IMG/VR virus record: IMGVR_UViG_3300017971_000546
Span: 1 to 35,428 of that record
From: a virus
DNA length: 35,428 nucleotides
Direction: 5' to 3' (one strand)
Below are positions 19,803-35,297 of the stretch, in pieces. A program made the position numbers and the translations under genes. How positions within the stretch are numbered: position 1 is the stretch's first letter; every line of letters begins with the position of its first letter. The notes under the pieces are model-generated. The model was not told the origin of the DNA and searched no databases. It saw only the letters and a program-made list of their open reading frames with translations.

Positions 19803-20501
19803 ATGGCGTGGTTGAAACCTGTGAATATTATTGCTAGGGATTTGAATGATGCGTGGTTTCAGGCATTGGAACGTGTTGTGTGTGATGGTCGTGTATGGAC
19901 TGTTGAAAGAGGTTCGTATGTTGGTCAGCGGCGTTGGGAACTGGATTTTGTTACAATCCATATAACACATCCAGGGACTCGACCTTTGGTGCCAGAGATT
20001 CCATGTCATTTGTCTCATATACCTCCGCCTACGACTATGGAGTATGTTGAGGAGTATTTGAGTTATTTGATGGAAGATGAACCTTTGAAGGAGCATGAAG
20101 TCTACACGTATGGGGAGCGTGTGAAGCCCCAAATGAATGAGATTATAAGGAGGTATAAGGATGGTGGGTTTGGGTCTAACCAGGAGTGTATATCGGTGTC
20201 GATGCCGTCGGATATAGCGTTGGATGACCCTCCATGTATGAGAAGTATAGATACTCGGATAGTGGCTGCTGATGGTTTAAGAAGAGGAGAACCTCAGAAG
20301 TTGCATTTTTTTCCTTATTTTAGGTCATGGTGTTTGGTTGGGGGTTTTCCTTCCAATTTGGCAGCGTTGAGACTGATGCAGGAGTATATGGCGGATCAGA
20401 TAGAGGTTGATGCAGGAGAAATGCTGTGTACTTCAAAGGGACTTCATGTCTATGAGTTTTATGTGGACATGGTGAAAGATATTGTAGGGGTTGTGGTATG
20501 A
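19803..20501 (+). CDS. Archaeal-type thymidylate synthase family protein
   Basis: A 232-residue protein of the ThyA fold, closest in pattern to the short archaeal thymidylate synthases rather than bacterial ThyA. Catalytic Cys145 lies in DPPCMRSID, then the phosphate-binding YFRSW (Arg174, Ser175), GFPSNLAALRLMQEYMA (Asn185) and SKGLHVYEF (His215, Tyr217). It should bind dUMP or dCMP and transfer a one-carbon unit to C5, giving dTMP or a hydroxymethyl pyrimidine. ATG 19803 has GAGG 6 nt upstream; ATG 19785 is less supported. It sits between DNA polymerase and bS21. Whether it makes dTMP or a modified base for phage DNA cannot be decided from sequence. Confidence 0.8.
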   Translation: MAWLKPVNIIARDLNDAWFQALERVVCDGRVWTVERGSYVGQRRWELDFVTIHITHPGTRPLVPEIPCHLSHIPPPTTMEYVEEYLSYLMEDEPLKEHEVYTYGERVKPQMNEIIRRYKDGGFGSNQECISVSMPSDIALDDPPCMRSIDTRIVAADGLRRGEPQKLHFFPYFRSWCLVGGFPSNLAALRLMQEYMADQIEVDAGEMLCTSKGLHVYEFYVDMVKDIVGVVV

Positions 20502-20761
20502 GTTCAAGAAGTGCTTTGTATGAGGATCACGAGCCTGTGGTGTTAAAACCGCTTGAGGTAGTGGTTATAGGGGGGCGTTTGGATCGTGCTCTGAAAAAAT
20601 TGAGACGAAAAATGGCACAGGAGGGTGTTTTGAAGGAGATGAAGCGGCGTCGCAGAGCTGTTAAGCCTAGTGAGCGGCGTCGTCGGAAACGTGCGGATGC
20701 AAGAAAAAGAGCTCGTAAGAGGGTTCGTTTACAGGAGAGAGTTTCCAGGTCGATGGCCTGA
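20498..20761 (+). CDS. rpsU: Ribosomal protein bS21 homologue
   Basis: An 87-residue very basic protein. Residues about 18-78 follow the bS21 pattern closely: PLEVVVIGGRLDRALKKL, then a helix EGVLKEMKRRR, then KPSERRRRKRADARKR. Host bS21 sits on the 30S platform near the anti-SD of 16S rRNA and helps start translation, so the phage copy could replace the host protein and favour phage mRNAs. The start overlaps the upstream stop (ATGA), with AGGGG about 8 nt upstream. The extra ~17 residues at the N-terminus exceed typical bS21. Confidence 0.92.
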   Translation: MSSRSALYEDHEPVVLKPLEVVVIGGRLDRALKKLRRKMAQEGVLKEMKRRRRAVKPSERRRRKRADARKRARKRVRLQERVSRSMA

Positions 20762-26320: not shown

Positions 26321-28093
26321 GTGGGCGCAGTTCAAAATGTTGTGGATAGGCTTCGTAATGCTTTTGTTGTTGATAAAGAGCGTGGCGGCGAACTTTTGGC
26401 AAGAGGTAGCACGTCCCCTGTGTATCCAGATTCTGGGTATGATTTGCTTCAGGCGTACGGGTATGATGCTCTATCTGATTATTTGAAGCTAGAGCAAGAT
26501 CTTCTAAGTAGATACGTAGATTACGAAGAAATGGATGAAAATGATTTGCTAGCTTCTGCTCTTGACATATATGCTGATGATTCGTCGCAGCCTGATACGC
26601 AGTTGCAGCGCACTGTGTGGGTATCTAGTCCGGATAAGACTCTTCAGGGGATATTGGATGATTTGTTTTTCAAGCGCCTTCGTTTGGATGAAGAGATTTG
26701 GGAGATTGCGCGTTCTTTGTACAAATATGGTAATGATTTTGAAGAATTGTTAGTGAACAATGATGGTGTTGTTGGTTTGAATTTTCTCCCTGCGCCTACT
26801 GTTCGACGAGTTGAGGGTCCCCGTGGTGAGCTTCATGGGTTTGTGCAGGATTTCAGAGGACGGTTCAGTTATTCGCCACAAGAGTTTCAGAGAATCTTAT
26901 CTCAGAGAAATGATGCTGTACGTCAGGCTATGTCGTATAGCGGTGCGAGATCTCCAGAGCATCCGTTTCAGAGAGTAGTGGCGTTAGAGCCTTGGGAGGT
27001 TGTGCATTTTAGGACACGCGGTAAGCAGCGGCGTAGTACTTATGGCTGGAGTGTTATGGAGCCGTGTCGTTGGATTTGGAAGCGTTTGATGCTTCTCGAG
27101 GATGCGGCTTTGATTTATAGGCTTCAACGCACGCCTGAGCGGCGAGCTTTTTATGTGGATGTTGGGAATTTGCCTCCTATAGAAGCTTTGGCTCATGTGA
27201 ATCGGGTACGTCAACAGCATAAGAAGAAGAGGTTTGTAAATCCGACGACACAGAAGCTTGATTTGAGATTTGATGCGTTGGCTCCTGATGATGATTTTTG
27301 GATTCCTGTGCGTGAAGGGAAGGAAGGTACACGGATCGAGGTATTGGGAGGTCCTGTTTGGCAAAGTGTTGAAGATCTCGAATATTTTCAGAAGAAAATG
27401 TTTGGAGCTTTGAAGGTTCCGAAGGCATATCTTGCTCAGGATGACACTACGTCAAGGGCGGTGCTTTCCAGTGAGGATGTTCGGTTTGCGCGGACGATTC
27501 TCCGTGGGCAGCGAGAGTTGAGAAATGGCCTCCGCAAGATTTCTCGGACGCATCTGGCTGTTTTGAAGATTGATCCTTATGAAGTTGATTATTCGATATA
27601 TATGACGGTGCCTTCTGCTATTTTCGAGTTAGCACAACTTGAGGCTCGAAATGCTCGAGCTGATTTAGCTGCTCGTATGCGTGAGCATGTTTCTCTGAGA
27701 TGGATTTTGGAGGAGGTTTATCAGCTTTCCGATGAGGATATTGCGCTGATTATTCAGGAACGTTCTGAGGATGTTATTCGTGAAGGAAAAGCTCAGGCGG
27801 AGGTTGAGAAGCTAAGTGCTCTGGCACAAGCTGCTGCTGAAAAAGCTAATGTTGGCGAGGGTTTGTCGTTACAGGATCGCATCAAGTTGCTTGAACGGAA
27901 GCTAAGTTCTGTACCTCGTAGACTTCGTGAGCGAATATCGGAGAAGGAGCTTCTTAGTGGTAGTCGGGAGGCTGAGAAGCGTTCTACGGACAAGTTGGAT
28001 AGAATCATGCGTTCCAATGATTATCAGACACGGCATCTAAAAGAAGTTGGAGGTCTCCTTCGTGACATTGTTTTGTCGGTTAAGGGACGTTAG
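26321..28093 (+). CDS. Portal protein, T4 gp20-like
   Basis: A 590-residue protein with the features of myovirus portal proteins: a helical N-terminus with LLASALDIYADDSSQPD, a central region YKYGNDFEELL, an EPWEVVHFRTRG strand segment, then GWSVMEPCRWIWKRLMLLED and a C-terminal helical part. The motif VPKAYLAQDDTTSRAVLS resembles the gp20 segment before the channel helix. The dodecameric portal forms the DNA channel that docks the terminase. GTG 26321 has GGAGG 5 nt upstream. The long coiled-coil C-terminus (about 480-590) is typical of the crown. It follows terL in normal packaging order. Confidence 0.88.
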   Translation: MGAVQNVVDRLRNAFVVDKERGGELLARGSTSPVYPDSGYDLLQAYGYDALSDYLKLEQDLLSRYVDYEEMDENDLLASALDIYADDSSQPDTQLQRTVWVSSPDKTLQGILDDLFFKRLRLDEEIWEIARSLYKYGNDFEELLVNNDGVVGLNFLPAPTVRRVEGPRGELHGFVQDFRGRFSYSPQEFQRILSQRNDAVRQAMSYSGARSPEHPFQRVVALEPWEVVHFRTRGKQRRSTYGWSVMEPCRWIWKRLMLLEDAALIYRLQRTPERRAFYVDVGNLPPIEALAHVNRVRQQHKKKRFVNPTTQKLDLRFDALAPDDDFWIPVREGKEGTRIEVLGGPVWQSVEDLEYFQKKMFGALKVPKAYLAQDDTTSRAVLSSEDVRFARTILRGQRELRNGLRKISRTHLAVLKIDPYEVDYSIYMTVPSAIFELAQLEARNARADLAARMREHVSLRWILEEVYQLSDEDIALIIQERSEDVIREGKAQAEVEKLSALAQAAAEKANVGEGLSLQDRIKLLERKLSSVPRRLRERISEKELLSGSREAEKRSTDKLDRIMRSNDYQTRHLKEVGGLLRDIVLSVKGR

Positions 28094-28143: not shown

Positions 28144-29019
28144 ATGCTTGATATGTTGGTTGGTGATTATCTCATAGCAGATTCGGAAGAACGGCGGCTT
28201 CGGCTTAATAGTTATGAGGCGAAGATTTTGCAGGCTCGTGATCTTCTTTCTGAGCATTTTGGTTCTGATACTTTTGAGTTGGTATCTACCATGGATGATT
28301 CTGCGGTAGTGTGTTCAAATGGTGTTTTTTATAGAGCCATGTTTGGAGAAGGTGGTGGAACGGTTTTGTCTGAATTGGATGTCGAAGTGTTTAATAGGGA
28401 TAATGTGCGTGTTTTTGTTGAGCGGGAGTCTTTAGAAATTGCGGATTTGTTTATTCGTGGGCATATGGATGATTCGTTGCGTAAGTTGGAGAATGTTGTT
28501 TTGAATGTTCCTGGGTTTGATTGTGAGTTCGCTGAAGTTTCTAGGTTGACTTCTTTGTTGTCCGCTCCAAGGTTATGGAGACGGGTCTTTGATCGAAAGC
28601 GTGCTTTCATTATTGAATTTTTGGAAACGGTTCCTTGTGTGGAAGGTGCTTCTGTGTTGCGCGATATGCTATCTGAGTTGTATGATAGATTTCGGGGTAA
28701 AGGGTTGGAGGAGGTTCTCTGTACTGTGTTTAAGGATTGTTTAGAACGGATGCAACATGATGTGGTGGATTCTGTTTCATCATCGGGTTTGTTTCCTGTT
28801 TTAGACCGTTCTTCGGATATGGTGTTGGGAGCATATCGGGATTTTGTGGATGATTTGCTTGAGGACCTATATGTTTTGGGTGAAGCGGGTTCTCGTGTGA
28901 AGATTGAAGGCGTTGGTGACCACGCTCTATTCTTAGACAAGTTGATTAAGGGTGTGGGAGATCGTGCGGTTGCTAGTTGTTTCATTGTTGCGGCCAATAA
29001 GAAGCTTGACGTTGGCTAG
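28144..29019 (+). CDS. Head-region protein of unknown function
   Basis: A 291-residue, mostly helical protein with no recognised motif. It begins MLDMLVGDYLIADSEERRLR and has several predicted amphipathic helices (about 90-270). It lies between portal and the acidic protein, where T4-type phages carry small head-core genes, so a prohead-core or head-completion role is possible. ATG 28144 lacks a clear SD. Codon use is ordinary for this phage. Confidence 0.6.
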   Translation: MLDMLVGDYLIADSEERRLRLNSYEAKILQARDLLSEHFGSDTFELVSTMDDSAVVCSNGVFYRAMFGEGGGTVLSELDVEVFNRDNVRVFVERESLEIADLFIRGHMDDSLRKLENVVLNVPGFDCEFAEVSRLTSLLSAPRLWRRVFDRKRAFIIEFLETVPCVEGASVLRDMLSELYDRFRGKGLEEVLCTVFKDCLERMQHDVVDSVSSSGLFPVLDRSSDMVLGAYRDFVDDLLEDLYVLGEAGSRVKIEGVGDHALFLDKLIKGVGDRAVASCFIVAANKKLDVG

Positions 29020-29033
29020 AAGGAGAGGATAGT

Positions 29034-29876
29034 ATGAGTTTTCTCAGACACCCTGTTGTAATATCTACTCTGGAAGAAGATTTTCGGAAAATTGGTCTCA
29101 TCAAGGAAGATGCGGAGGGGAGTGCTCCTGCTTCGCAGGAAGAAGCTTCTTCGGATGATGCAACCGTGGCGAGTGGGGGTGCTGCGGCGAGCGATTCTTC
29201 TAGTGCTGAGGGTTTCAAAGAGAATTTCCAACGGCGTTGGGATGATTTGGGGAATGCCGGTGTTGAAACTCTCGTTTTAGACGATGATGGTATGGATGAA
29301 TTGGAGTCTTGTGCTGGTTTGTCTGATGAGAAAGATTCTTCAGAGACTAAGGTTGCGTCTGAGGACGAATCATCTTCGGATGATGAATCGAATGATGTTG
29401 CTGAAGCACCTGAATCTGTTTCGATGGAGTCGGTCATTCAAGCGATGCAGGTCATCAGTTCTTTTATTGTCGAGGATTCAAAGGAGGTTTCTTCTATTGA
29501 GGAAGCTACTTCTGCTTTTGAGGAAGTTGGTAAAATTGCCGTTAGACTTCGGGAATTTTTTGAATCTCTTGGCAAGTCTCAAGATGATTCGGAATATGTT
29601 GAGATCGCTGCGGCCTATGATGAGATTGCTAAGTATTCTGATGGTGTTGTAGATGTTCTCAGCAACGAGCCCGATACCGTTGATATGTTTAAATTAGGTG
29701 GTACTCTCAAGGAGTATTTGGATACGGTGCTTCAGGGGTTGGAAGCGTATTCGGTTCTTCGTGAGGCTTCTGATGATGAGATTTCGGATGATACTTCAGT
29801 AGCGTCTGGGGATTCCGACGATTCTACGGATGTGGAAGAGGCTGAGGGTGTTGGTTCTGAAGGGGGAAACGAATAA
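29034..29876 (+). CDS. Acidic head-region protein, zero-frame product of a likely -1 frameshift
   Basis: A 280-residue acidic protein rich in Ser, Asp, Glu and Ala, with low-complexity stretches at about 24-60, 92-130 and 245-280 and a helical centre (about 130-235). Composition and place (after the portal, before protease and capsid) suggest a scaffold or prohead-core protein. AAGGAGAGG precedes ATG 29034. Its last codons contain the slippery heptamer GGGAAAC just before the TAA stop, and a GC-rich stem follows. A -1 shift there would replace the last residue and add 79 basic residues (358 in all). Confidence 0.7.
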   Translation: MSFLRHPVVISTLEEDFRKIGLIKEDAEGSAPASQEEASSDDATVASGGAAASDSSSAEGFKENFQRRWDDLGNAGVETLVLDDDGMDELESCAGLSDEKDSSETKVASEDESSSDDESNDVAEAPESVSMESVIQAMQVISSFIVEDSKEVSSIEEATSAFEEVGKIAVRLREFFESLGKSQDDSEYVEIAAAYDEIAKYSDGVVDVLSNEPDTVDMFKLGGTLKEYLDTVLQGLEAYSVLREASDDEISDDTSVASGDSDDSTDVEEAEGVGSEGGNE

Positions 29877-29929
29877 GGCGGCGGCGCCCCCTCCCTCCTA
29901 AGAAGGGGGGTTCTTGGAGGCGACGTCGC
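29864..29929 (+). promoter_or_regulatory. Predicted -1 programmed ribosomal frameshift signal
   Basis: G GGA AAC at 29864-29870 fits X XXY YYZ in the zero frame. A 7-nt spacer (GAATAAG) leads to GCGGCG at 29878-29883 (or 29881-29886), which pairs with CGTCGC at 29924-29929 with one G-U. Within it, CCCTCCT 29893-29899 pairs with AGGGGGG 29904-29910 around an AAGA loop. The zero-frame TAA is at 29874. The heptamer and spacer are canonical; folding is by eye. Confidence 0.6.
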
Positions 29930-30109
29930 ACGGCATATTCTTCTGGAAGAAAAGAAGTTGTTGGGGCTGATAGAAGCGTGGTGAAGAGAAAGGCCCGAAC
30001 TGTGGGTTCTCGTATGGCAGTTTTAGATCGTCCTGGTTATGGTGGGGTTTTGGATACTATTATAGGTCGCACCCCGTTTCGGTCTAGTTTTCGATGGAAG
30101 AGGTCGTGA
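29870..30109 (+). CDS. Basic -1-frame extension of the acidic protein
   Basis: An open frame of 79 codons from CGA 29870 to TGA 30107-30109 with no ATG, GTG or TTG near its start. The frame is open back to 29861, just behind the slippery site. The product is very basic (starts RIRRRRPLPPKKGGSWRRRR, ends FRSSFRWKRS), fitting DNA or acidic-core binding. If made by -1 frameshifting it joins residue 279 of the acidic protein. Other readings: a separate protein from a non-standard ATA at 29873, or a shorter one from GTG 29978 or an internal ATG. Its stop overlaps the protease ATG (TGATG), so translation through it would couple to the protease gene. Confidence 0.6.
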   Translation, partial: RIRRRRPLPPKKGGSWRRRRTAYSSGRKEVVGADRSVVKRKARTVGSRMAVLDRPGYGGVLDTIIGRTPFRSSFRWKRS

Positions 30110-31779
30110 TGAAAACTCAGGTTACAGAGTCGAATCCTACAGAGAATCAGTTGATTGATGAGCAGGTTAAGTCCTGTAAATTAGAGCTTGTGGAAGGGGA
30201 AGGCCGTAAGAAGGGGCGTGTGTTTGCTCGTGGGGAGTTTGGTCATGCGGCTAATCCCACTGCAAACAAGCGACTTTACCGACCTCAAGTTTGGGAGAGC
30301 AATTTTGCGCGTCTTAAATCCAGTTTGGATGAGAAGAAGGTTCTTGGGGAATTAGATCATCCGGAATCTGGAAGAACTGCACTACAACGAGCGTCTCATG
30401 TGGTTACTTTTTTGTCTTTGGAAGGAGATGTTGTTAAGGGTGAGGCTGAGATTCTAGACACTGCTAAAGGGAAAGACTTGAAAGCTATTTTGGGAGCAGG
30501 TGTTCCGGTTGGAGTGAGTTCTCGTGGGTATGGAAGTACTAAAATTAACAAGGATGGTATAGAAGAGGTTCAGGACGATTACAAGCTTGTTACCTTTGAT
30601 TTTGTTGCTGAACCTGCTGATCCCACGGCGTATCCTGAAATTGTATTTGAAAGTGGACGCGGTGAAGATTTACAGTCTGCTTCGATGTTGTTTGAGGGTT
30701 TTGATGTGGGGTCTGAGCATTCGGTTTCTGTATCTTCTGAGGAGTCTGGTGATGTTGAGGATGTTGTTGATGCGGATGGGGCGTCTTCTGGGGATAGTGA
30801 TAGGACTGGTGATGTTGAGCAGACGTCGGAGAAGGCTGATGGTGTGGAAGTGGCTTCGGAACTTTGTCAATCATCTTCAGATGAGGAGAAGGGTGTCATT
30901 TATGTAGATGCTCTTCGTGAAGAGTTTGCCAATGAGATTGTTAGTCGGATAGGAGCTCTTCGTTCGGATGTTGAGGCTGCTGTACGTGCTGAGATGGCGT
31001 CGGATCCGGAGATAGGTGGAGCAAAAGCTGTTTTGGAGCAGATAAAGTCTATTATTCGTCCTCATGTTCTTACTGAGGGTGATAGTGCGATTATTTCTGA
31101 GAAGGATTCTGAAATTCAAGCTTTGCGGTCTGAAATCCAGGATCTTCGGTCTCAGAGGGGTGAATTGGAGCTGAAGATCGAGGGTTATGTGGCAGCTATT
31201 GAGAAATTGGCTGCTGCTGCAAAAGAGGCTGGTTATCGGTTCCATCTCGAGCGGTTGTTGCATGAAGATGATAGTGACGCCAAACGTATTCGTAAAATTG
31301 TAGGTAATGTTTCTCAGTATGAGAATCCGGATGATTTGCGGAGTGTGGTAGAGAAGGCTCGTAATGAGATGCGTGCGTTTCGTATTGAGGAAGAGAAGGT
31401 TCTTGGTAGAAATAAGGAGCTCACTGAGGAGTTGGAGAAGGTACGGGAGGCTAATCGCGATCTGGAGCTGAGAGTGTATGCCTCCACTGCGTTGCAAAAT
31501 CATCCTAAAAGTGCGAGAATTTTTCGTATGCTGGAGAGGACTGGCATGCAGTCCAAAGAGCATATTGATGCGTTTATAGAGGAGTTCCGTGAACCTGAGA
31601 GAGGTCCCGATGATTTGGAACGTGTCCGTAGTAGAGTTCGGGCTCAGTTGTGTGGTGGTTTGGAGCATCGGGATGAGAGTGCTGAAAGTGTGAGGGGCAA
31701 TGGTGTGGAGCGGGATTATAATGGGCTGGGAGCATCGCTCACAGATTTGCAGCACTTGGCAGGTTTAAGAAGGGGTTGA
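30109..31779 (+). CDS. Prohead protease fused to a scaffold-like coiled-coil domain
   Basis: A 556-residue protein. The N-terminal ~180 residues match the T4 gp21-type prohead serine protease: catalytic His84 in GELDHPESG and Ser137/138 in VGVSSRGYG, with VTFDFVAEPADPTAYPE after them. An acidic Ser/Asp-rich linker (about 195-260) is followed by a long coiled coil (about 325-470: SEIQALRSEIQDLRSQRGEL) like a scaffold. A protease-scaffold fusion would release and degrade its own scaffold during maturation. ATG 30109 overlaps the preceding -1-frame stop and has AAGAGG 6 nt upstream. Confidence 0.85.
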   Translation: MKTQVTESNPTENQLIDEQVKSCKLELVEGEGRKKGRVFARGEFGHAANPTANKRLYRPQVWESNFARLKSSLDEKKVLGELDHPESGRTALQRASHVVTFLSLEGDVVKGEAEILDTAKGKDLKAILGAGVPVGVSSRGYGSTKINKDGIEEVQDDYKLVTFDFVAEPADPTAYPEIVFESGRGEDLQSASMLFEGFDVGSEHSVSVSSEESGDVEDVVDADGASSGDSDRTGDVEQTSEKADGVEVASELCQSSSDEEKGVIYVDALREEFANEIVSRIGALRSDVEAAVRAEMASDPEIGGAKAVLEQIKSIIRPHVLTEGDSAIISEKDSEIQALRSEIQDLRSQRGELELKIEGYVAAIEKLAAAAKEAGYRFHLERLLHEDDSDAKRIRKIVGNVSQYENPDDLRSVVEKARNEMRAFRIEEEKVLGRNKELTEELEKVREANRDLELRVYASTALQNHPKSARIFRMLERTGMQSKEHIDAFIEEFREPERGPDDLERVRSRVRAQLCGGLEHRDESAESVRGNGVERDYNGLGASLTDLQHLAGLRRG

Positions 31780-31840: not shown

Positions 31841-33337
31841 GTGGAAGCTCGACAGATGCTGAGAGAAGAGGGTCGTCGATCGATCGCCGACCAGAGTTAT
31901 GTTGGAGCTCTCATTCGAAAATGGGGGGATTTTCTTGAGGGACTTTCGGATCGGGATGAGCAGAGTCGGTATATTTTGGGATGTACTGCGATGCTTATGG
32001 AAAATGAGTCGCTGTGGCTTCAGTCGTTGACAGAGGACACACGGACTGTGAATGTTGGTTCGTTCACAAAATTCATTTTTCCTGTTTTGCGGAGAGTTTT
32101 TCCGAATCTGATCGCTAACGAGATTGTCAGTGTTCAGCCGATGACTTCTCCGGTCGGTGCTGTTTTTTTCCTCGACTACGTGTATGGTTCGACAAAAGGT
32201 GGTGTTACAGAGGGGGATGTATTTCCGCGCGACTTCGATAGAGATTTCTCATCGGAGTATGTGAACGGTGAGGCTATCGCGACAGGTGATGGTACCAACT
32301 ATGTTTCTGGGCAGGATGGTCTTGATGCTGTACTAGCGTGGACTCCTGTTCGTCCTTTGGACTCTGCACGCGGATTTTCTGTCACTCTCAAAGAGATTGA
32401 CGCTACCACTGGTGAGGCTGTTGCTGGTCAGACGATTGTGGACGATGGTTCTGGAGCTTTTGCGTCACCGGCGACAGCAGGAACTATCAATTATTCGAAC
32501 GGTGCAATTACAGGTGTGGAATTTGCTTCTGCGCCTAGTAGTGGGAATCAGATCAAGGCTTATTACTACTTCGATGGTGAGCTCAACACCAAGGTTCCTG
32601 AAGTAAAATTGGATGTGAAAAAAGCTGCTGTGGAAGCTGTGCCACGTCGTTTGAAAGCTCTGTGGTCGTCTGAGGCGGCTGAGGATCTCCGTGCGTTCCA
32701 TGGCATTGATGCTGAGACAGAGCTTGTGTCGATTATTGCGCAGGAAATTGCGCTTGAAATCGATAGAGAGATCATCCAAGATCTGTTTCTCTCGTCGACT
32801 GGCACCACTGGTACTTTTGACCGGATTCCTCCTGGTGGTATTGCAGAGATCGATCACTTCCGTGCGATGATTACTCAGATCAGTACGGTCTCGAATATCA
32901 TTCACAAGAAAACCCTCAGAGCTCCTGCGAATTGGATTATCACAAGTCCTGAGATTTCGGCTCTTCTGACCCAGCTTACAACGCATGGTGACTTCAAGCC
33001 GATTTGGTCTGGGGACATGAGTCCGCAGTCTCCGAATGATACTATGCGGCCAAGAACTGCGCATGGCCAATTCACCATCTACAAGACCGGTACACTCATG
33101 AACAAGTGGATTGTTTATGAGGATCCGTTCTTCACTACTAACAAGATGATGGTCGGTCTCAAAGGTGGTTCTTTCCTCGAATCCGGCTATGTTTGGGCTC
33201 CATACATTCCGTTGCAGGTGACGCCCACATTTTTAGATCCTTCAGATTTTAGTTTTAGGAAGGGTTTGCGAACTCGTTATGCGAAGAAATTGCTTCGTCC
33301 CGATTTCTACGGCCAGCTTACCATAACTAACCTCTAA
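31841..33337 (+). CDS. Major capsid protein, T4 gp23-like
   Basis: A 498-residue protein with gp23-type features: VNVGSFTKFIFPVLRRVFP (about 71-89), VSVQPMTSPVGAVFFLDYVY (about 96-115) and C-terminal GLKGGSFLESGYVWAPYIPL, all typical of HK97-fold myovirus capsids. A beta-rich Gly/Ser/Thr segment at about 170-248 is a likely surface insertion domain. GTG 31841 has GGAGG about 6 nt upstream. C use is higher than in neighbouring genes, consistent with codon bias for high expression. It follows the protease gene in standard T4 order and is expected to be cleaved near its N-terminus. Confidence 0.9.
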   Translation: MEARQMLREEGRRSIADQSYVGALIRKWGDFLEGLSDRDEQSRYILGCTAMLMENESLWLQSLTEDTRTVNVGSFTKFIFPVLRRVFPNLIANEIVSVQPMTSPVGAVFFLDYVYGSTKGGVTEGDVFPRDFDRDFSSEYVNGEAIATGDGTNYVSGQDGLDAVLAWTPVRPLDSARGFSVTLKEIDATTGEAVAGQTIVDDGSGAFASPATAGTINYSNGAITGVEFASAPSSGNQIKAYYYFDGELNTKVPEVKLDVKKAAVEAVPRRLKALWSSEAAEDLRAFHGIDAETELVSIIAQEIALEIDREIIQDLFLSSTGTTGTFDRIPPGGIAEIDHFRAMITQISTVSNIIHKKTLRAPANWIITSPEISALLTQLTTHGDFKPIWSGDMSPQSPNDTMRPRTAHGQFTIYKTGTLMNKWIVYEDPFFTTNKMMVGLKGGSFLESGYVWAPYIPLQVTPTFLDPSDFSFRKGLRTRYAKKLLRPDFYGQLTITNL

Positions 33338-33449: not shown

Positions 33450-35297
33450 ATGGGTCGAAAACCTAAAAGTTTGAGTTTGGATTTATCTCGCTGGTCTCCT
33501 GAATTGGCTTGGATGGCAGGTGTTGTTTATGGTGATGGTTATTCTAGTAATCGTAAGGGAAAACAACGGGTTACTGTTGTGAGTGGTGATGAAGAGTTGT
33601 TGGGTAAGTGGGTTTCTGTTGTTGGAAGAGGTGTTGTAAGAAAGCGCAAGGATTGTAATACATGGCAGGTTGAAGTAGGCAGTATGTTTTTGTCTCAGTG
33701 GTTTGCTGATCGTGGTATCGATGGTAAGAAAGCTGGGAGTTTGATGTGGCCGCGTGATTTGCCAGAAGAGTTTAAGGTGCATTTTGTTAGGGGTTTGTGG
33801 GATACGGATGGTTCTGTGATGCGACAGAAGCGAGAAGGGAAGAGGATAGATCAGTTGCGTTTATGTTATTGCAGTAAGGCTAGGGATTTTGTGGAGCGTG
33901 TTGCGGAGGAAGCTCCTGTGAAATTGTTTGTTGAGAAGCAGGTTGTACAGAGGCTTGGCAGATATAAGGGTTATGAGTATTGGATTGCTACAGTAGGAGG
34001 GCGCCAGGCTGAATTGTTTTTTGATTGGTTGTATTTGGATTCGCCTGAAGCTTTAAGGTTAAATCGTAAGTGGGATGTTGGTGTGAAGTTTAAGGAGTGG
34101 ATTGAGAGTATAACGAGTCGTTGTGAACGGTGTGGTAAGGAAGTTCGGGATCGACGGCTTTGTAGAGATTGTCAGAGAGTGAAGTGGGAGAATGCGGTGT
34201 GTGGTTGTGGAGGTTCTCCTGTTGTTGCTAAGGGGTTATGTCGGCGTTGTTATAATAAAGAGCGTAGAGCGCGATTGTTGGATTGGAAAGATGACATAGC
34301 TTTGTGTAGGTTGGAAGCTTTTTCTAAAGATAAGTGGTTAAGTTTGGATGCTACAGAGATGGGGTCTGAAGTTGACTGGGTTGTTCGTACGTATTTGGAT
34401 AAAGGTTGTCCTATGATGTTGGTGAAGCGGTTGGATGAGGATGATCCTTTAGGAGGAGTGCGTCGTGGGGTTGTGGAGGTGGATGGTAATGTGGTTGTTA
34501 ATAAAGGCCGTAAAGGGCAACGTATATGTTCTGCTGCGCATCCACATCGTTTAGAGGCTCGTCATCGCACGAATAAATGTTCTGTCGTTAAGGCTTTCAA
34601 GTCGGAGGAGCTAATACGCAAAGCTGTTTTGTTTCAATTGGAGCATGGGGAGCGTGTGACTCCTATGCGTGTTGTGAATGCGCTTTCAGCTATGTTGAAG
34701 AGTCCTTTGAATTTTCCTCCTGTGTTAGCGCGGTGGATTGTAGACAATTATGCTGATACTGATGGTATTGTTTTTGATCCTTGTGCTGGGTATGGAGGTC
34801 GTTTATTGGGAGCTATGGCTTCTGAGAGGAATGTTACGTATGTAGGACATGATATTGAGCCAAGGACTGTTAATGGTAATAAGCGGTTGGCTAAGTGGTT
34901 GGATGTTGAGGATCGTGTTTGTATTGAGAAAGCTGGAGTGGAGGACATGGTTAAATGGCCGGAGGCTTCTTTAATTTTCACAAGTCCTCCGTATTATAAT
35001 CGTGAGGTGTACGGTGATTATGCTGAGAAGCGACTTCGGAGGTATGGTGGAGTTGATGAGTGGATTGACGGGTTTTTAGCGACATTAGTTGGAAGAAGTC
35101 TAGGATATGCTGACAAATTTGTATTGAATATTGCTGCTATACGGCTTGGAGATCGTATTATAGATTTGCCTGGTGAGGTATGTCGTTTGGTTGAGAATTG
35201 TGGGGGTGTGGTTGAGTATATATGGGATTGGAAAACTTCAGTGTTTGGAAGTCGGTCTAGTACTGAGAAATTGATTGTGTGTTCTGGTGAACTCTAA
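33450..35297 (+). CDS. LAGLIDADG homing endonuclease fused to zinc ribbons and a DNA methyltransferase
   Basis: A 615-residue protein in three parts. Residues 1-210 are a LAGLIDADG endonuclease with both motifs and acidic residues intact (LAWMAGVVYGDG 19-30, HFVRGLWDTDGS 111-122). About 223-270 hold two zinc ribbons (CERCG, CRDCQ; CGCGG, CRRCY). The C-terminal part is a DNA methyltransferase with motif I FDPCAGYGGRLLGA (about 441-454) and motif IV FTSPPYYN (about 510-517), the type of orphan phage methylases. ATG 33450 has AGGTGG 7 nt upstream. The gene has its own promoter and a downstream terminator. One protein may both cut and protect a site; which base and site are unknown. Confidence 0.85.
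   Translation: MGRKPKSLSLDLSRWSPELAWMAGVVYGDGYSSNRKGKQRVTVVSGDEELLGKWVSVVGRGVVRKRKDCNTWQVEVGSMFLSQWFADRGIDGKKAGSLMWPRDLPEEFKVHFVRGLWDTDGSVMRQKREGKRIDQLRLCYCSKARDFVERVAEEAPVKLFVEKQVVQRLGRYKGYEYWIATVGGRQAELFFDWLYLDSPEALRLNRKWDVGVKFKEWIESITSRCERCGKEVRDRRLCRDCQRVKWENAVCGCGGSPVVAKGLCRRCYNKERRARLLDWKDDIALCRLEAFSKDKWLSLDATEMGSEVDWVVRTYLDKGCPMMLVKRLDEDDPLGGVRRGVVEVDGNVVVNKGRKGQRICSAAHPHRLEARHRTNKCSVVKAFKSEELIRKAVLFQLEHGERVTPMRVVNALSAMLKSPLNFPPVLARWIVDNYADTDGIVFDPCAGYGGRLLGAMASERNVTYVGHDIEPRTVNGNKRLAKWLDVEDRVCIEKAGVEDMVKWPEASLIFTSPPYYNREVYGDYAEKRLRRYGGVDEWIDGFLATLVGRSLGYADKFVLNIAAIRLGDRIIDLPGEVCRLVENCGGVVEYIWDWKTSVFGSRSSTEKLIVCSGEL

Follow-up and report, generated by a model that had tools for sequence, protein, structure and literature searches.

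How is a strongly basic reading frame expressed when it opens, with no start codon of its own, over the last codons of an acidic gene? This question is raised by the head genes of the window, that is, the whole stretch of DNA analysed here, a 35,428-base virus fragment from IMG/VR. Towards its 3' end lies a T4-type head module, and from the portal to the major capsid gene all features given below lie on the plus strand. A gp20-like portal protein (26321–28093; phrog_213, E 9e-58) is followed by a 291-aa ORF without a confident family (28144–29019; no PHROG, one Pfam match below cut-off), whose position between the portal and the acidic gene is also kept in relatives. The acidic head-core candidate is a 0-frame ORF of 280 aa (29034–29876), and the basic tail, a -1 frame ORF of 81 codons plus stop, extends from 29864 to 30109. 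Then come a gp21-like prohead protease (Peptidase_S77) with a C-terminal coiled-coil region (30094–31779; phrog_207, E 3e-45; PF03420), which probably starts at 30109, and a gp23-like major capsid protein (31841–33337; phrog_138, E 5e-69). The order portal-core-tail-protease-major capsid protein parallels T4 20-67-68-21-22-23, which supports a role in the head, and from its gene position we infer that the acidic protein is a component of the prohead core (scaffold).

Other features of the surrounding genes were recorded as well. An ORF resembling ribosomal protein bS21 lies at 20498–20761 (phrog_21469, E 1.3e-9), and RpsU is likewise found near head genes in Microcystis phage Mel-JY01. Directly 3' of the capsid gene, a 615-aa ORF (33450–35297) gave weak endonuclease/methyltransferase matches (phrog_4645, phrog_498, phrog_12517). 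The long C-terminal coiled-coil region of the protease ends in GLGASLTDLKHLAG, and in LR756511 (L055) a separate gene 3' of the protease carries a similar terminal motif, LGVDLDTLKTLAG; this shared motif suggests that the window protease may be a protease-scaffold fusion.

The acidic gene ends GGG GGA AAC GAA TAA and contains the heptamer G_GGA_AAC at 29864–29870, as the earlier note had reported. The 7-nt spacer that it described was found as GAATAAG (29871–29877), and in the predicted fold GCGGCG (29878–29883) pairs with CGTCGC (29924–29929) around an inner hairpin, as claimed, giving a stem-loop at 29878–29929. The -1 frame had been said to be open for 79 codons exactly from the slip site; it is open, but it holds 81 sense codons counted from GGG. 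A TGA at 29858–29860 leaves this frame open from 29861, one codon ahead of GGG, and it ends at the TGA at 30107–30109. The onset of the ORF has no standard start codon, again as described: the first 38 tail codons are free of ATG, GTG and TTG, and the first such codon is a GTG at 29978, past the invariant core of the tail (RxRRTAYSSGRxE, 29918–29956, with RRTAYSSGR beginning at 29924). The proposed charge contrast was also borne out, with a net charge at pH 7 of about +22 (pI 12) for the tail and about -56 for the 0-frame product. A shift at this site predicts the junction peptide ...VGSEGGNR (tryptic form EASDDEISDDTSVASGDSDDSTDVEEAEGVGSEGGNR), and the 0-frame form ends GGNE.

We propose that ribosomes translating the acidic core gene would reach G_GGA_AAC and pause at the stem-loop 7 nt 3' of it. 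A fraction would re-pair on GGG AAA and read on in the -1 frame, attaching the 81-codon basic tail, while the non-shifting ribosomes would terminate two codons later. Judged from comparative sequence evidence, a programmed -1 ribosomal frameshift very probably joins the acidic core protein to the basic tail. The base runs here are 3–5 bases long, too short for transcriptional slippage.

Relatives were collected by several searches. The protease search gave six relatives with 44–56% identity over most of the length, together with one distant partial match, and each of the six shares the acidic ORF, its heptamer and a basic -1 ORF that lacks a start. With a tail profile, 40 loci were recovered, and with a second profile two more; a DNA pattern encoding RxRRTAYSSGRxE matched 62 contigs, of which roughly two dozen had not been found by the profiles. 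The analysed set comprised 59 loci (the window and 58 more), which formed 40 clusters at 85% tail identity. Every family member is a metagenomic sequence, and the carriers of the cassette appear to be a large group of uncultured T4-like phages. No tail homologues were found in GTDB genomes or in named phages, PHROGs contained no family matching the acidic protein or the tails tested, and no match was found in Rfam. A small protein ending QGGN in cyanophage P-TIM40 was considered as a comparable frameshift and rejected, as no XXXYYYZ sequence is present there.

In 35 of the 40 clusters, the tail overlaps the upstream head-core ORF and is in the -1 frame relative to it. Within this overlap, an in-phase XXXYYYZ heptamer was present in 30 of the 35 clusters against 1.9 expected, and GGGAAA in 24 of the 35 against 0.26 expected, the expectation being taken from the background frequency of such sequences in these ORFs. 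The P-values obtained for GGA usage at the slip-site codon were set aside as circular, because the loci had been picked for GGGAAA. The slippery sequences in use are G_GGA_AAC/AAA/AAG and, at the homologous place in other lineages, C_CCU_UUC, A_AAC_CCU, G_GGG_GGC and U_UUU_UUU. On the protease tree, which was built by a quick method and has many weak forks, the slip-site type switches at least nine times with the -1 geometry retained. Such swapping of canonical heptamers at one site is hard to account for without selection for slippage. Immediately 5' of GGG, L014, L021 and L044 have a stop in the -1 frame, so that this frame can be entered only via the heptamer. For E. coli, which may not be the host here, A_AAA_AAC is reported to shift less than A_AAA_AAG, and G_GGA_AAG to be highly shift-prone (PMC5009743). 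Five of the -1 clusters lack a canonical heptamer and have CCCUACC, CCCUAUC or CCCUUCU in its place (such junctions were seen in L028:3960-4003, L030, L032, L102, L136 and L035); these are possibly an unconventional -1 site with proline tRNA slippage.

The tail could instead be a separate cistron, translated by termination-reinitiation or from an AUA/CUG start that spans the 0-frame stop and has SD-like purines 5' of it, so that no fusion would be made. In the window, the codon over the stop is indeed ATA and is preceded by GGGGG; the gene overlap is tight, and five other clusters have a tail gene with its own ATG or GTG start. However, the -1 codon across the 0-frame stop varies among the 35 clusters (CTG, GTA, CTA, ATA, GTG, TTG or TTA) and is ATG in none of them, although ATG is one or two changes away, and an AUA/CUG start was rejected because the codon is neither conserved nor ever ATG. 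The stretch from the slip site to the core is free of ATG, GTG and TTG in 27 of the 35 clusters, and some in-frame start occurs in 8. A separate cistron would also leave unexplained the in-phase heptamers and their canonical replacements, the position of the heptamer 8–26 codons ahead of the stop in some clusters, and the structure just 3' of it. We consider this explanation very unlikely.

The RNA structure 3' of the slip site was assessed in a 70-nt fold segment starting 4 nt past the heptamer (+4 to +74). The mean z was -1.98 over 30 clusters, with 70% below -1.5, whereas 11 other offsets gave mean z values of -0.10 to -0.67 (paired p 1e-5 to 0.015 against the slip-site segment). The outer 12-pair helix was 90% paired in six sequences of the window's clade, three pairs showed two-sided changes, and the inner hairpin was less conserved than the outer helix. 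The 7-nt spacer of the window lies within the range of about 5–9 nt expected of a stimulatory structure. The comparison with relatives that the earlier note had called for was thus in its favour: the heptamer, the -1 geometry, the downstream structure and the startless basic ORF are kept across deep divergence.

Next to the signal, the tail itself was analysed. Among the six tails of equal length in the window's clade, pN/pS was 0.167 in the tail frame compared with 2.3 and 2.9 in the other two frames, each of which contains stops, and the differences at codon positions 1/2/3 numbered 150/97/596. In the alignment of 34 tails, R, RR, AYSSGR, and E with the following G were invariant in all 34. 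On these substitution patterns, the tail is evolving as a protein under strong purifying selection. An error in assembly or sequencing, or decay of a gene, might be suspected given the metagenomic origin of the sequences, but the same geometry recurs in 35 independent clusters from different metagenomes and the tails diverge at third positions. This cross-cluster comparison refutes such an origin, the chance of which we regard as negligible.

The end of the tail meets the start of the protease. In the window, TGATG (30107–30111) combines the tail stop with the candidate protease start in a 1-nt overlap; the same arrangement (TGATG/TAATG) is found in 16 of the 35 clusters, ATGA in 3, and adjacent codons in 2. 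Because the tail stop overlaps the protease start, re-initiation by shifted ribosomes is possible, and re-initiation at TGATG might link the protease dose to the shift. The frameshift could then be real and mainly regulatory, sending ribosomes to TGATG so that the protease is made as a fixed fraction of the core, with the tail secondary. The overlapping or abutting junctions, 21 of the 35, are in line with this, as is the abundance of the T4 protease, about a tenth of that of the main core protein (PMC9958956). This explanation is nonetheless unlikely in our judgement: the tail is itself under strong purifying selection and carries an invariant motif, branches with a separate tail gene retain the tail without a frameshift, the next ATG lies at least 5 nt past the tail stop or is lacking within 20 nt in at least 8 clusters, and directly 5' of its start the protease gene carries its own purine-rich stretch.

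In five clusters the tail is a gene of its own with an ATG or GTG start (L042/L156, L150, L159, L154/L155 and L046), in L159 with a classical ATGA overlap. Each of these separate-gene tails begins with a short leader containing L/I-x-E, with E at residue 10, 12, 14 or 16. The leaders are MSLIPLSLLLGE, MSEVVARIDAFLSE, MTMMTMIENYVEGLSE and MKHTIKMIEE, the choice of start in L154 being uncertain. Shuffling puts the probability of finding four leaders of this type at about 0.0016, a modest figure that is a product and hinges on the choice of start codons. The T4 protease gp21 cleaves behind L/I-x-E, and proteins are directed into the T4 head by MKTYQEFIAE, the 10-residue leader of IPII/IPIII (PMC9026906). 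The separate-gene leaders agree with the T4 type, in which 10–19 N-terminal residues end in L/I-x-E. The state of the tail, fused or separate, changes at least three times on the protease tree. The earlier note had named relatives with a standard start codon for the basic ORF as evidence against a frameshift. Such relatives do occur in these five clusters, but their tails have a leader of their own and they lie on other branches, indicating that fusion and separate gene are two states of one module and that the case for the window stands.

The acidic core protein has a conserved N-terminus, LRHPVVI(S/T)xLEEDFRKIGLIK (consensus LRHPVVITSLEEDFRKIGLIKE), followed by a helical domain and an acidic linker. 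The AlphaFold2 model was helical, with mostly high confidence at about residues 131–254 (29424–29795), and a fold search of BFVD and PDB gave no match at E<=0.001. In L023, L035, L041 and L046 the core protein, though acidic elsewhere, has a Lys/Arg-rich block in its N-terminal third. Where the last helix gives way to the linker, 14 of the 35 clusters have an L/I-x-E motif at one aligned column, its middle position varying among seven residues (R, H, T, I, S, V, E), and in several more clusters the motif lies only a few residues away; in the window it is L-R-E at residues 242–244 (29757–29765). This motif resembles a gp21-type protease site and is a candidate for prohead protease cleavage. The density of L/I-x-E over whole proteins is enriched (263 vs 142), but this is not proof because other window proteins lean the same way (z 1–2).

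These observations bear on the function of the fusion. We suggest that a minority of the acidic core protein copies, fused to a basic internal protein, would bring it into the prohead during assembly, in the way that Gag carries Pol. A gp21-type protease would then cleave at L/I-x-E (e.g. L242-R-E244) and free an acidic-linker/basic piece, and in the separate-gene branches the leader with L/I-x-E, which is like a T4 capsid-targeting sequence, would target the tail instead. Alternatively, the shift could be real and the two forms could be scaffold isoforms, the basic tail binding the inner capsid surface, the portal or DNA without being released as cargo. The acid-base contrast fits such isoforms, and a shell-scaffold protein with a -1 frameshift is already known in CsoS2A/CsoS2B (PMC5009743). 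Against them, the tail is expected to be cut away from the helical domain, given the conserved L/I-x-E directly ahead of the linker, and in branches with a separate tail gene the tail is made on its own, not as part of the acidic protein; we regard isoforms as rather unlikely, if a serious contender. A cargo role of the basic tail, delivered into the prohead by fusion, is our preferred reading of the sequences, held tentatively and at a little less than an even chance. The fuller proposal, in which Gag-Pol-like packaging and protease release were swapped at least three times with a leader-bearing gene and the shift also feeds the protease start, would likewise be possible, and we put it forward as provisional.

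The cassette represents a widely conserved recoding site in T4-type prohead core genes, where we found none described: a search of the open-access PMC literature yielded no account of a frameshift in such a gene. The tail lies outside PHROGs, and startless ORFs are liable to be missed by gene callers; its product has probably been overlooked. The entry of internal proteins into T4-type heads has been called mysterious (PMC9958956), and the exchange between fusion and stand-alone gene makes it testable. In addition, the family provides no fewer than five naturally occurring slippery sequences at a single homologous position, a series for bacterial recoding studies.

The earlier note had limited known phage frameshifts to tail chaperones and T7 gp10. 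That list was incomplete, as -1 frameshifts in phage structural genes also include those in the capsid genes of T3, A2, A118, A500 and PSA (PMC5009743). The capsid genes of T7/T3 (gene 10), Lactobacillus A2 and Listeria A118/A500 resemble the window in that a -1 shift within a head gene gives a minority of the protein copies an extended C-terminus. In those phages, however, the coat protein is extended (by an Ig-like domain in T3 and A2), whereas here the extension is a short and strongly basic tail on the product of a gene that does not encode the shell, and the window's family alternates with a stand-alone gene. Lambda G/GT likewise uses a -1 shift at a heptamer of the G_GGA_AA class, close to where the first ORF ends, to make a minority fusion, but these are tail genes, and the window cassette lies among head genes and its tail is unrelated in sequence. 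A tail-chaperone frameshift of the G/GT type was rejected here, as the cassette sits between the portal and the prohead protease and not upstream of a tape measure gene; the acidic and tail proteins gave no PHROG or Pfam match to tail assembly chaperones. T4-like phages reportedly make their tail chaperones without frameshifting (Vladimirov 2022, as cited in PMC10885494).

T4 gp67/gp68 occupy the same interval (20-67-68-21), where an acidic protein is followed by one with a basic C-terminus and both have a role in the head core, but they are separate genes with their own starts. The "scaffold-region" label of the earlier note holds for the position between gp20 and gp21 and does not extend to homology with gp67/gp68: no sequence similarity to these or to T4 internal proteins was detected, and the idea that the tail is a gp68 homologue, which came from R-x-R-N-A-F in gp68, was rejected at a profile comparison probability of 0.1%. 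T4 IPII/IPIII are also small basic proteins, and share the leader with L/I-x-E at residue 10–16 with the separate-gene tails only; they are not homologous, and the window's branch has a frameshift fusion in place of the leader, its packaging being presumed. Although their proteins are unrelated to those of the window and the analogy is one of logic only, retroviral Gag-Pol and alpha-carboxysome CsoS2 likewise use a frameshift to tie a minority domain to the protein of an assembling particle or scaffold.
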